48,267 bases of DNA from Pseudomonadota bacterium (GTDB lineage Bacteria > Pseudomonadota > Gammaproteobacteria > Xanthomonadales > Rhodanobacteraceae), in NCBI GenBank assembly GCA_021781425.1, contig JAJXWU010000071.1, forward strand, positions 1 to 48,267, in the 5' to 3' direction. The position numbers were made by a program, and so were the translations under genes. Under the pieces are notes generated by a model. That model made no database searches, was not told the origin of the DNA, and was given only the letters and a program-made list of their open reading frames with translations. Below are positions 3,041 to 27,380 of the stretch, in pieces. How positions within the stretch are numbered: position 1 is the first letter of the stretch; every line of letters starts with the position of its first letter.

Positions 3041-3991
3041 GTGGCGGAATTCGAACTCATCGAATCGATCCGTGCGCGTTGCACGCAAACGCGCGACGAC
3101 GTACTGCTTGGTATCGGCGACGACGCGGCGCTGCTTGCGGTTCCGTCCGGAAAGTGGCTGGCGGTCAGCACCGATACGCTGGTTGCCGGTGTGCATTTCA
3201 TGCAGGACACGGCAGCGCGCGACATCGGTTGGAAATCGCTTGCGGTGAATCTTTCTGACCTGGCGGCTATGGGCGCCGAACCCGCGTGGGCCACGCTGGC
3301 ATTGACCTTGCCCGCGGCCGATGCGCGCTGGGTGGAGGAGTTCGCGGAAGGGTTCGCGGCGCTTGCAAGACAGTATCGCGTCGCGCTGACCGGCGGCGAC
3401 ACCACCCAAGGGCCGTTGAGCATTACGGTGACGATCCACGGTCTGCTGCCGGAACGCGTCGCGCTCACGCGCAGCGGCGCACGGGGGGGCGATGGCGTGT
3501 ACGTCACCGGCACGCTCGGCGATGCGGCGGCGGGATTGCGACAGCTGCAATCCAAGTCGCCGGGCGACTCGCGTTTGCTCGAACGGCTGCAGCGTCCGAC
3601 GCCGCGTGTCGCGCAAGGGCTGCTGTTGCGCGGGCACGCTACGGCGTGCATCGACGTATCCGACGGACTCGCCGCCGACCTGGGTCACGTCTGCGCAGCG
3701 AGCGGAGTGGGCGCGGAAATCGACGCGGACGCGCTGCCCGCCTCGCCGGCGCTTCTGGCCGCATTCGATGCCGGCACGCGGCGCGCTTTCCAGCTTGCCG
3801 GCGGCGACGATTACGAGTTGTGCTTCACGGCGCCCGATGTGGATAGCGGCGATTTGCTCGACGCGCTGGCCCACAGCGGCTGCGCCGCCGCGCGTATCGG
3901 CAGGATCGACTCCGGTAGCCAGGTGCGCATACGCGATGCGGCAGGAAACCCGGTGGCGCTGCCGCGCCGGGGCTGGGAGCATTTCGCGTGA
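3041..3991 (+). CDS. thiL: Thiamine-monophosphate kinase
   Basis: Phosphorylates thiamine monophosphate to the active cofactor thiamine diphosphate using ATP. The 316-residue protein begins EFELIESI and carries GIGDDAALL (metal/ATP site), STDTLVAGVHF, KSLAVNLSDLAAMGA and TGGDTTQGPLSIT, all standard for ThiL (AIR-synthase-like fold). I chose the GTG at 3041, one base after the nusB stop, because the start at 2930 would add sequence read out of frame inside nusB. It overlaps pgpA by four bases (GTGA at 3988). The order nusB-thiL-pgpA is common in gammaproteobacteria. Confidence 0.94.
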   Translation: MAEFELIESIRARCTQTRDDVLLGIGDDAALLAVPSGKWLAVSTDTLVAGVHFMQDTAARDIGWKSLAVNLSDLAAMGAEPAWATLALTLPAADARWVEEFAEGFAALARQYRVALTGGDTTQGPLSITVTIHGLLPERVALTRSGARGGDGVYVTGTLGDAAAGLRQLQSKSPGDSRLLERLQRPTPRVAQGLLLRGHATACIDVSDGLAADLGHVCAASGVGAEIDADALPASPALLAAFDAGTRRAFQLAGGDDYELCFTAPDVDSGDLLDALAHSGCAAARIGRIDSGSQVRIRDAAGNPVALPRRGWEHFA

Positions 3992-23908: not shown

Positions 23909-24684
23909 GCAATAGAATCCTGCTCAAGACCGTGTCGTGGCTGATCGCGCTGACCCTGGTCGCGCTGCCGGTGATCGGCGTGCTCGAAGGTTGGTTCGCG
24001 GCGAATCGCTGGCCGGTGCGCTATCTGCAGGTCGAGGCCGAATACAACCACGTCAGCGCCGAACAGATCCGCGCCGCGGCGACCACGCAATTGGGCAAAG
24101 GCTTCTTTGCGCTGGATCTCGACGACGTGCGCGTCGCGGTCGCGCGTTTGCCCTGGGTTGCCAGCGTGGAAGCGCGCAAGCGCTGGCCGGACACGCTGAT
24201 CCTGCGGGTGCGCGAGCGCCAGCCGTTCGCGCGCTGGGGTGCGGGGCGCCTGATCGATCGCGATGGCGCGCTGTTCGCGGTGCCCGGCGGCGATGCGCTG
24301 CAGGGCTTGCCGCAACTCGATGGTCCCGACGACGCACAGGCGCTGGTGGTGGATTTTTATTCGAGCTTGGTGCGCCGGTTTTCCGGAAGCGGACTGATCC
24401 TGTCCGGCGTGAGCTTGAGTCCGCGCGGCAGCTGGACGCTCACGCTCGCCAACGGCGCGCAGATGCTGCTCGGCCACAAGCTGACCGATGCGCGCCTGTC
24501 GCGTTTCCTCGCTGTGCTGCCGCAATTGACCGCTGCGCATCCGGGTGGTTTCCAGCATGCCGATCTGCGCTACAGCAATGGCTTCGCGGTGTTGTGGGCG
24601 GCCAGCCCCGCACCGGCGGCGCCAGCTGCCGATTCCTCCAAGACGGGCGCGCCGCCGGCCGCCAAGCCCGAGGCTCATACATGA
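23905..24684 (+). CDS. ftsQ: Cell division protein FtsQ
   Basis: Bitopic division protein of the FtsQLB complex, 259 residues. One membrane segment lies near residues 10-27 ([17 protein letters not shown]), followed by a POTRA-like domain ([22 protein letters not shown], then [21 protein letters not shown], each a family hallmark) and a beta domain. The C-terminal ~25 residues are Ala/Pro-rich and probably flexible. ATG 23905 follows GAAGGAG inside the ddlB end and overlaps its stop; the frame opens earlier at 23860, but that start has no comparable ribosome site. Confidence 0.92.
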
Positions 24685-25919
24685 CCAAAGCCAAAAGCGA
24701 CAAGTCCCTGATCGTGGGCCTGGACATCGGCACCTCCAAGGTGGTGGCGATCGTCGGCGAATACGCGCCGGGCGAAACCGTCGAGGTGATCGGCATCGGC
24801 TCGCATGCCTCACACGGGCTCAAGCGCGGCGTGGTCGTGGACATCGAATCGACCGTGCAATCGATCCAGCGGGCCGTCGAGGAAGCCGAACTCATGGCCG
24901 GTTGCGAGATTCGCTCGGTCTATGCGGGCATCTCCGGCAGCCATATCAGCGGCCGCAATTCGCACGGCACCGCGCCGATCCGCGATCGTGAAGTGACGGC
25001 GGCCGATGTCGAGCACGTACTCGACGCGGCTTGCGCCGTGGCCATCCCCGCCGACCAGCGCGTGCTTTACAAGGAGCCGCAGGAATACATCGTCGACGGT
25101 CAGGAGGACATCCGCCACCCGATCGGCATGAGCGGCGTGCGTCTGGAAGCGAACGTGCACATCGTCACCGGCGCGGTGAGCACGGCGCAGAACATTACCA
25201 AATGCGTGAACCGCTGCGGTCTGCAGGTGGACGACCTGATCCCGGCGGCGATCGCCTCGAGCAAGGCGATTCTGGTGCCCGACGAGCGCGAACTGGGCGT
25301 GTGCATGGTCGACGTCGGCGCCGGCACCACCGACATTGCGATCTACATCCAGGGTGCGATCCGGCACACGGCGAGTCTGCCGATCGGCGGCGACCAGGTC
25401 ACCAATGACATTGCCCACGGCTTTCGCACGCCGACCGCGCACGCCGAAGACATCAAGGTCAAGTACGCCTGCGCACTGGCCCAGCTCGCGCACGCAGAGG
25501 AAACCATCCAGGTGCCCAGCGTCGGCGACCGACCGCCGCGGCGTCTGGCAAGGCAGACGCTCGCCGAGTGGGTGCAGCCGCGCTACGAGGAACTGTTCGG
25601 CATGGTGCAGGCGGAACTGCGCCGCTCCGGATTCGAAAGCATGGTCGCCGCCGGCGTCGTGCTCTCTGGCGGCTCGGCCAAGATGGAAGGTGTCGTCGAA
25701 CTGGCCGAGGAAGTGTTCCACCTGCCAGTGCGCGTGGGTCTGCCGCAGCATGTCACCGGGCTGACCGATGTGGTCGGCAATCCGATTCACGCCACCGGCG
25801 TGGGCCTGCTGCTGTACGGCAGCCGACAGGACAACGTGCGCACGCCGATCGCCGTGCCCGGCAGTGGTGCGGGCGGCGTGATCGAACGGGTGATGCAGTG
25901 GATCAAAGGAGAGTTTTAG
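24681..25919 (+). CDS. ftsA: Cell division protein FtsA
   Basis: Actin-like ATPase that tethers FtsZ to the membrane, 412 residues. Nucleotide-site motifs are VGLDIGTSKVVAIVGE at the start, VDVGAGTTDIAIY and VLSGGSAKMEG. The SHMA/1C region lies between. The C-terminal ~15 residues (GGVIERVMQWIKGEF) form the amphipathic membrane-targeting helix. Its ATG sits in the ftsQ stop. The ftsZ start is 288 bp beyond its stop, the widest gap inside the cluster. Confidence 0.96.
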   Translation: MTKAKSDKSLIVGLDIGTSKVVAIVGEYAPGETVEVIGIGSHASHGLKRGVVVDIESTVQSIQRAVEEAELMAGCEIRSVYAGISGSHISGRNSHGTAPIRDREVTAADVEHVLDAACAVAIPADQRVLYKEPQEYIVDGQEDIRHPIGMSGVRLEANVHIVTGAVSTAQNITKCVNRCGLQVDDLIPAAIASSKAILVPDERELGVCMVDVGAGTTDIAIYIQGAIRHTASLPIGGDQVTNDIAHGFRTPTAHAEDIKVKYACALAQLAHAEETIQVPSVGDRPPRRLARQTLAEWVQPRYEELFGMVQAELRRSGFESMVAAGVVLSGGSAKMEGVVELAEEVFHLPVRVGLPQHVTGLTDVVGNPIHATGVGLLLYGSRQDNVRTPIAVPGSGAGGVIERVMQWIKGEF

Positions 25920-26207
25920 TTCATGGCCAGATATGGGACATCCTGTCGCCAATCCGGCACGGCGAGTTCGGTACACGCCCGAACTCGCCTTCGCCGATCC
26001 GGTGGATCGGCGGGCGAGCCATGCTGTCTCGCGTGGGTTTATTTCGTCGCGCAGGGAAGCGCGACAGGGTCCGAAATGGACCCGCCCGGCAACGGGCAAC
26101 GTGCGGGGCATACGCCTGTTCCGTGCGGCTGGCGGCGTCAGGAGATGCCAGCGGCGAATCACAACTACTTCAATGCGTTTAACCCTGGCTAGCGGAGGTT
26201 GGGAATC
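25920..26207 (+). other. Hairpin-rich spacer between ftsA and ftsZ
   Basis: A 288-nt spacer made mostly of consecutive perfect inverted repeats. They are: 11-bp stem 25961-25971/25979-25989 (GGCGAGTTCGG with 7-nt loop); 9-bp stem 25992-26000/26004-26012 (CGCCGATCC, 3-nt loop); 5-bp stem 26014-26018/26028-26032; 7-bp stem 26046-26052/26059-26065; 6-bp stem 26067-26072/26078-26083; 5-bp stem 26084-26088/26093-26097 with a GCAA (GNRA-type) loop; 6-bp stem 26128-26133/26147-26152. The last three before 26100 are nearly continuous. AGCGGAGG (26191-26198) is the ftsZ ribosome site. An open frame at 25923-26192 has no recognisable protein and I treat it as non-coding. Confidence 0.7.
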
Positions 26208-27380
26208 ATGTTCGAACTCGTCGAAAAACTCGCACCGAATGCGGTGATCAAGGTCTTGGGCGTCGGCGGCGGCGGCGGCAACGCGGTCGCGCACATGGTC
26301 GGCTCGCACGTCGATGGCGTGGACTTCGTCTGCGCCAACACGGACGCGCAGGCGCTCAAGATGAGCGGCGCCAAATTCACGCTGCAGCTCGGCAGCAATG
26401 TCACCAAGGGCCTGGGTGCCGGTGCCAATCCGGAAGTCGGGCGTCAAGCCGCGCTCGAGGATCGCGAGCGCATCGTCGAGACTCTGCACGGTGCCGACAT
26501 GGTCTTCATCACTGCCGGCATGGGTGGCGGCACCGGCACCGGCGCGGCGCCCGTGGTCGCGCAGCTCGCCAAGGAAATGGGAATTCTCACCGTGGCCATC
26601 ATCACCAAACCGTTCCCCTTCGAAGGCCGTCGCCGCATGCAGGTGGCACTGAAGGGCATCGAGGACTTGTCCCAGCACGTGGATTCGTTGATCACGGTGC
26701 CGAACGAGAAATTGCTGACCGTGCTCGGCCGCGACGTCACCCTGCTCAGTGCGTTCAAGGCCGCCAACGACGTGCTGCTCGGCGCAGTGCAGGGCATTGC
26801 CGATCTGATTACCCGTCCGGGGCTGATTAACGTCGACTTTGCCGATGTGCGCACGGTCATGTCCGAGATGGGCATGGCGATGATGGGCACAGGTTCGGCA
26901 CGCGGCGACGACCGCGCGGTAGCGGCGGCCGAGGCGGCGGTGAACAATCCGCTGCTCGAGGACGTGAACCTGTCTGGCGCGTGCGGGATTCTCGTCAACG
27001 TCACCGCTGGCGCCACTCTGACCATGCGCGAGTTCAACGAGATTGGCGACGTGGTGCACCAGTTCGCCTCCGAGGACGCGACGGTGGTGATCGGCACGGC
27101 GCTCGATTCGGAACTGCAGGATGAGGTGCGTGTGACCGTGGTCGCGACTGGGCTGAATCGCAACGCGGCTCGCCAAGTCGTGCGCCGCGAGCAGCCCGCG
27201 GTCGTGGAGCGCCCGCGCATCATCGCGCGCACCGGAACGGACGATCTGCCGGTGGACTACCTCAAACCGCCGGCGACGACCCCGGCCACCCGCGCCGTAT
27301 CCGAGTCGCCGAAGGCCAGGGCCGAGACCCAGGGCGACTGGCTGGATATTCCCGCCTTCCTCCGCAAGCAGGCCGACTGA
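26208..27380 (+). CDS. ftsZ: Cell division protein FtsZ
   Basis: Tubulin-like GTPase that forms the Z ring, 390 residues. It shows IKVLGVGGGGGNAV, the GTP signature GGGTGTG at residues 106-112, NVDFADVRTVM in the T7-loop region and a variable linker from about residue 320. The C-terminal peptide DWLDIPAFLRKQ binds FtsA and ZipA. The ATG at 26208 has GGAGG upstream; a TTG three codons earlier is less likely. A strong intrinsic terminator follows 66 bp after the stop. Confidence 0.97.
   Translation: MFELVEKLAPNAVIKVLGVGGGGGNAVAHMVGSHVDGVDFVCANTDAQALKMSGAKFTLQLGSNVTKGLGAGANPEVGRQAALEDRERIVETLHGADMVFITAGMGGGTGTGAAPVVAQLAKEMGILTVAIITKPFPFEGRRRMQVALKGIEDLSQHVDSLITVPNEKLLTVLGRDVTLLSAFKAANDVLLGAVQGIADLITRPGLINVDFADVRTVMSEMGMAMMGTGSARGDDRAVAAAEAAVNNPLLEDVNLSGACGILVNVTAGATLTMREFNEIGDVVHQFASEDATVVIGTALDSELQDEVRVTVVATGLNRNAARQVVRREQPAVVERPRIIARTGTDDLPVDYLKPPATTPATRAVSESPKARAETQGDWLDIPAFLRKQAD

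Follow-up and report, generated by a model that had tools for sequence, protein, structure and literature searches.

A conserved structured ftsZ leader in the Rhodanobacteraceae, a probable RsmA/CsrA target, and the dispersed palindromic repeat inserted beside it

The amount of FtsZ is a main lever that matches bacterial division to nutrition, and this matching is an old question. In Escherichia coli ftsZ is reportedly under post-transcriptional control by DicF. According to the accessible part of PMC9628754, E. coli also possesses StfZ, an antisense RNA to ftsZ that is made from the ftsA-ftsZ spacer. As far as this source extends, StfZ and DicF resemble the locus described here in that the output of ftsZ is determined, or here would be determined, in the ftsA-ftsZ spacer or close to it; they are, however, antisense or trans RNAs, whereas we are dealing with a structured leader on the sense strand.

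The mRNA targets of the global regulators CsrA and RsmA are described, in the available sections of PMC6028588 and PMC4894983, as carrying GGA in short closed loops, several of them in series together with a site in the Shine-Dalgarno sequence, at distances which can be bridged. The same sections of PMC6028588 give a site spacing of 10-55 nt for cooperative binding of CsrA and ANGGA as its preferred motif. The leaders of glgC (PMC6028588) and of Campylobacter flaA (PMC4894983) have, in these sections, several GGA sites at bridging distances with the Shine-Dalgarno sequence included, and the leader reported here is built likewise. It differs from the known leaders in its target, ftsZ, in three to four covarying serial hairpins which extend through much of a family, and in its loops, which are predicted sites and are mostly AGGA instead of ANGGA. 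Serial hairpins with AGGA loops are also a feature of RsmW and the Rsm/Csr sRNA clan (RF02809, CL00106), but these are sRNAs, whereas the array here lies in an mRNA leader and stays below the Rfam threshold.

A literature search, to which most subscription papers were out of reach, found no ftsZ leader bound by RsmA or CsrA. The only statement of ftsZ as a target that it returned stands in the accessible part of a 2026 preprint (PMC12889724), which in its Discussion names ftsZ with a conserved predicted CsrA/RsmA function over 16 gammaproteobacteria; Xanthomonas, Lysobacter and Rhodanobacter are absent from that text. The preprint offers a model prediction, and its accessible part contains no leader structure, whereas a leader structure is described here. 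The ftsZ passages of PMC4236599, PMC5928044, PMC6529632 and PMC2838875 report no binding of RsmA/CsrA to an ftsZ leader. The kind of control is already known; what appears to be new is the structure of the target and the fact that much of the family has kept it.

The window, i.e., the whole stretch of 48,267 nt that was analysed, stems from a metagenome assembly (G000); Rudaea, which is the genus of the window (g1) or very near to it, is placed in the Rhodanobacteraceae. The genes flanking the spacer are by Pfam ftsQ, ftsA, ftsZ and lpxC. On the + strand ftsA (24684-25919; FtsA, 2.9e-51) ends with its stop codon at 25917-25919 and ftsZ (26208-27380; Tubulin, 8e-47, and FtsZ_C, 2e-34) starts with the ATG at 26208, leaving a spacer of 288 nt. 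A sigma-70-type promoter was not found in this spacer. Terminator-like matches were obtained at 26019-26036 and twice on the minus strand inside ftsZ, and none on the + strand within or 3' of the stretch 26044-26207, for which reason a terminator was rejected as the identity of that stretch.

Folded as + strand RNA the spacer reaches -146.6 kcal/mol; dinucleotide shuffles average -118.6 kcal/mol with an sd of 5.5, and 0 of 200 are as low (z -5.07), which bears out the original prediction that the stem density lies far above random expectation; the minus strand gives a z of -4.43. The excess is significant in each half separately, with z -4.83 (0/200 shuffles) for 25920-26043 and z -3.35 (1/200) for 26044-26207. 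In the minimum-energy folds the hairpin at 25926-25958 is irregular, and eight others lie between 25961 and 26155. The spacer is made up of two unrelated features which adjoin each other, a dispersed repeat (25920-26043) and the ftsZ leader (26044-26207). A structured 5' leader and a block of REP-like repeats had both been proposed for the spacer as a whole. The leader reading holds for the 3' half with its covariation and stem excess and fails for the mobile repeat at 25920-26043; the REP-like reading holds for the latter, which has dispersed copies and an empty site in the relative G015, and fails for 26044-26207. None of the observations made here points to a processing or pausing site, the third proposal.

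The 5' part is a single copy of a repeat with four palindromes, forming hairpins at 25926-25958, 25961-25989, 25990-26014 and 26016-26039 of the + strand. Among the spacers read, only the window and the sister genome G013 carry it at the junction of ftsA and leader, and G013 matches a 371-base query spanning the spacer over its full length with 95%. In G015 (L008) the ftsA stop codon is almost directly joined to the counterpart of position 26044, and G011 has a different palindromic repeat at the same junction. A search of the own genome for further copies of the palindromes, as had been suggested, returned a second and partial copy at G000:C236, i.e., 2 copies in total. With up to 3 mismatches the core of the repeat is present in 19 of 99 genomes, most abundantly in G061, another genome of the order (73 copies), followed by G069 (23) and G012 (11); a control with the reversed pattern gave 1 match in all 99 genomes. 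The 28 copies of G061 that were inspected (20 loci read) are mostly elements of ~127 bp with four hairpins; they occur in either orientation, some of them in tandem, and 22 of the 28 are outside ORFs by a crude call. Being dispersed, present in multiple copies, palindromic and mostly intergenic, and facing an empty site in a relative, the stretch 25920-26043 is by its sequence characteristics a REP-like dispersed palindromic repeat that was inserted between ftsA and the leader. It resembles REP/BIME elements in its dispersed, palindromic, mostly intergenic and partly tandem copies of both orientations. It differs from them in its length of ~127 bp, its four different hairpins and the lack of a Y1 transposase in the own genome or beside the copies read: no Y1 (RAYT) match was obtained in G000, G012 and G013, and G061 and G069 together have four, at which the loci read contained no copy of the core, even with 6 mismatches allowed.

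Read antisense to ftsZ, the repeat (the minus strand of 25920-26043 in the window; L205-L217 and L283-L302) often has GGA loops such as ATGGAT and CAGGAT in its outer hairpins, and copies that are transcribed could, judging from these motifs, bind RsmA. One copy (L211) gave an Rfam match to the gyrA RNA below threshold (31 vs 45 bits). By eye, various palindromic repeats, e.g., of the CCCTCTCCC types, are seen in the gap between the ftsA stop codon and the leader in L007, L009, L012, L014, L020 and L024; inside the leaders none were noticed in a non-systematic look by eye.

The stretch 26044-26207 (+ strand) is a conserved structured ftsZ leader with covarying hairpins and is present in the window as a four-hairpin variant, supported by covariance model R2 and by covariation. 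HPa (26046-26065) has a 7-bp stem and the loop AGGGAA with GGA at 26055, the first candidate RsmA site. It is followed by HPb (26067-26083; stem GGGTCC/GGACCC, loop GAAAT, the loop being GAAAC in the ten other rows of the genus) and by HPx (26084-26097; GCCCG-GCAA-CGGGC), so that the three nearly contiguous repeats and the GCAA loop of the original prediction are recovered at these places. HPx occurs in only part of the genus and is a gap in 5 of 11 genus rows. HPc (26100-26127) has an 11-bp stem including G-U pairs and the loop TACGCC, and HPd (26128-26155, inner stem 26134-26149) has the loop AGGA with GGA at 26141, the second candidate RsmA site. The Shine-Dalgarno sequence GGAGG (26194-26198) provides a further candidate site overlapping the ribosome site. 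These GGA positions, two in loops and one in the Shine-Dalgarno sequence (26055, 26141 and 26194), are absent from the original prediction. The GGA of HPd lies 53 nt from that of the Shine-Dalgarno sequence, and the distance from HPa to HPd, 86 nt, is outside the 10-55 nt range; HPa fits the ANGGA motif, HPd and the Shine-Dalgarno sequence do not.

That these hairpins are kept as structures can be seen from compensatory changes in the spacers of relatives. For the window's own structure, compared over 11 genus members, two-sided changes were found in 16 of 35 pairs (shuffles 9.3; 1/500 as high), and 80.9% of the cells are paired compared with 27-44% when the partners are slid. The covariation score of 0.289 vs 0.166 in shuffled alignments was reached by 0/500 shuffles, controls which remove relatedness only partly. 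The weak member is HPd with 54.5% of its cells paired in these 11 genomes, whereas all cells of HPb are paired in 11/11. In HPc, 6 of 7 pairs have changed on both sides. A2, a MAFFT alignment that spans several genera with leaders of the window's type, puts HPa and HPd in the wrong place, and therefore only HPc was scored in it. The alignment of the clade with three hairpins (A1, 39 rows) covers 39 of its 68 leaders, with genera g2, g8, g9, g10, g11, g15, g21 and some others absent, and its rows L221 and L222 are without the last 13 nt. Here two-sided changes are present in 13 of 19 pairs (shuffles 8.8; 1/500 as high), 93% of the cells are paired vs 36-49% with slid partners, and the covariation score is 0.361 vs 0.198 (0/500), the controls again removing relatedness only in part. 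Alignment A3 was made without L212 and L218, which are chance coding matches, and without the partial L216. Pair conservation and an excess of stems, the joint absence of which would have spoken against the original prediction, were thus both observed.

For the family as a whole, 133 ftsZ leaders were read, which represent 26 genera of the Rhodanobacteraceae. Among the matches listed, 194 genomes of the family have ftsZ; 130 of them supplied leaders, three further leaders stem from other genomes, and the 64 remaining genomes, about half of them from genus g18, are outside the set. Also outside it are L028, which is a copy of the repeat, the duplicate L220, and L224, which belongs to another family. 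For the count based on folds 132 leaders were used, one being shorter than 80 nt after trimming, and the Shine-Dalgarno sequence was excluded. In their minimum-energy folds the leaders have on average 2.02 GGA-containing loops, compared with 0.31 in dinucleotide shuffles and 0.02 in the reverse complement, and 47% of their GGAs sit in loops vs 7% in the shuffles. Under stricter stem criteria, hairpins with a GGA loop reach a density of 10.4 per kb in leaders, compared with 0.85 per kb on the sense strand of the remaining parts of these loci and 0.45 per kb antisense; at the same place in thirty genomes of eleven other families of the order the density is 1.6 per kb. At least one such hairpin is present in 114 of the 133 leaders, two or more in 53 and three in 10. 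Outside the leaders two or more are found in 3 of 1508 segments of 150 nt, and within the 48-kb window the leader is the only place on the + strand to hold two. All 133 leaders have GGA in their final 20 nt, as is commonly expected of any Shine-Dalgarno sequence, and this sequence is invariant in alignments A2 and A4.

The leaders were grouped into forms after the folds had been seen. The form with three hairpins is found in 16 genera, with GGA loops in 59 (HP1), 62 (HP2) and 68 (HP3) of 68 genomes, followed by a nearly invariant and mostly unpaired ACAACGACAAC and by CGGAGGA before the ATG. Its median GGA-to-GGA spacings up to the Shine-Dalgarno sequence are 22, 29 and 41.5 nt (n=53, 62 and 68; range 18-55), which lies within 10-55 nt and therefore corresponds to a spacing that a dimer can bridge. 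ANGGA, with the A two bases before GGA, is present at 70 of the 189 loop sites of these genera (HP1 17/59, HP2 46/62, HP3 7/68), and most of the others are AGGA. Rudaea and four more genera (40 genomes) have the longer form, consisting of HPa, HPb with a GAAA-type loop, HPc with a GCC core, and HPd. In these 40 genomes, with arms extended from the loops by script, the stem of HPb has at least 5 bp in 29 (11 distinct arm pairs) and that of HPc at least 5 bp in 35 (20 distinct arm pairs). A GGA loop lies between -75 and -50, the place of HPd, in 26/40, and 23/40 have GGA loops at the places of both HPa and HPd. The remaining 25 of the 133 leaders (genera g7, g12, g23, g24 and g25) fit neither form; their mean is 0.8 strict GGA hairpins, and 9 of them have none.

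Two covariance models were built. R1, for the three-hairpin form, gave one match each in 34 of 98 genomes, many of which are training genomes, and 0/39 in genomes of other families; of the 33 matches compared with the ftsZ coordinates (all but that in G036), 31 are at the ftsZ start or at most 10 nt from it, and two weak ones are elsewhere (G056, G007). The leader of the window was not matched in the R1 search. R2, for the form of the genus, has a single match in the own genome, the leader itself, at E 3e-46; this leader is one of the rows on which the model was trained, as are all 11 genus members that were searched and matched. Among genomes that had no part in the training it recognized the ftsZ leaders of two g16 genomes, one g5 and one g26 genome (E 1e-10 to 1e-9), whereas the leader was missed in 15 of the 19 genomes that belong to other genera; 11 weaker matches (E 1e-3 to 0.1) are not at ftsZ leaders. 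With its single match in the own genome, at ftsZ, a REP-like identity of 26044-26207 was rejected. Rfam returned no family at gathering score in the stretches scanned, and membership of 26044-26207 in an Rfam family was rejected on this ground. RsmW (RF02809) was matched inside 1 of the 18 leaders scanned (L189, 27.3 bits vs a gathering score of 52, E 0.19), the 17 others having no Rfam match in the leader proper, and a second RsmW match (L219, 27.8 bits) is upstream of the conserved leader. The earlier remark that no described element fits therefore stands as regards Rfam in these stretches; the arrangement of the GGA loops, however, follows the target logic of CsrA/RsmA.

From the sequence features assembled above we consider it probable that 26044-26207 is a cis-regulatory leader which is bound by RsmA/CsrA and controls the translation of ftsZ. 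The control would most likely be translational and a repression; stabilisation of the message is possible. The serial hairpins present GGA in their loops, with a further GGA in the Shine-Dalgarno sequence, and a dimer of RsmA/CsrA would occupy the loop sites first. The bound dimer could then bridge to the Shine-Dalgarno sequence and so block ribosomes. With high free RsmA the synthesis of FtsZ would be held down, and the Rsm sRNAs would relieve this repression.

The leader could be structured for another reader, its loops serving as decoy or standby sites for ribosomes or being bound by a different protein that reads GGA. Many loops read AGGAG or TGGAGG and so resemble a Shine-Dalgarno sequence, most are not ANGGA, and the nearly invariant unpaired segment upstream of the Shine-Dalgarno sequence in the three-hairpin clade would suit such a function as well. 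We regard this as unlikely, though worth some weight: the loop words vary across the genera and also include TGGATG, AGGGA, GAGGAA and CGGAA, with GGA common to all. It is GGA and not AGGAGG or a longer word like a Shine-Dalgarno sequence which is conserved, and this speaks against ribosome decoys. Short closed loops at distances that a dimer bridges fit CsrA. GGA may, on the other hand, be secondary in the window's clade, with HPb and the GCC loop of HPc binding an sRNA or a protein. The strongly covarying HPc, with its GCC core kept in most of the 40 genomes from the five genera and its stem covarying fast, would be explained in this way, as would the lack of a GGA loop at the place of HPd in 14/40. 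In 36/40 genomes, however, a GGA loop is kept within the broad HPa range of -185 to -125, and the consensus of the three-hairpin clade is without HPc and yet retains GGA. A pseudoknot between the HPc loop and downstream sequence was rejected, its count of 9/39 being near the expectation of 7.5. We therefore hold a function apart from GGA to be quite improbable.

That the whole spacer is a REP-like palindromic block without a role in the control of ftsZ deserves next to no credence. It is true of 25920-26043, and several relatives have other palindromic repeats just 3' of the ftsA stop codon, but 26044-26207 is situated at ftsZ, shows covariation and a strand-specific loop motif, and has a single match in the own genome. 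A more elaborate variant of control by RsmA, which we would call a long shot, is that the leader acts as a dual-function RNA with two inputs: through its array of GGA hairpins, which is like that of an sRNA, the ftsZ transcript would titrate RsmA as well as being its target, and the GCC loop of HPc would add a second partner in the window's clade.

Control by RsmA/CsrA presupposes the protein. Its gene, csrA, was found in 52 of the 60 relatives that were searched, and in 31 of the 36 that belong to the family. The csrA of one nearby relative is canonical by sequence and matches solved chains of the CsrA/RsmA/RsmE type. No csrA match was obtained in the assemblies of the own genome (G000) and of G005, G008, G013 and G015. 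In G011 and G003 csrA adjoins alaS, and in all five csrA-negative assemblies a full alaS is missing as well, with either no match, a weak unrelated match or a gene cut by the contig end; these assemblies are therefore silent on the presence of csrA, and a loss in the lineage cannot be told from them. Near 3549 of G000:C83 (L236) the match to the tRNA cluster that lies next to csrA in G011 breaks off within the tRNA-Ser gene, and beyond this break there is no match to the G011 locus; possibly the break marks an integrated element.

For the reading of such loci our analysis also holds a caution, as a spacer rich in hairpins may be a mobile repeat beside a real regulatory RNA, in this case a covarying leader RNA for which the Rfam scans gave no family at threshold. 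Should the ftsZ transcript indeed both titrate RsmA and be its target, expression of a division gene would feed back on the global Rsm switch. If RsmA controls the translation of ftsZ throughout the family, this would constitute a direct link from a global control of the carbon and virulence type to the divisome.
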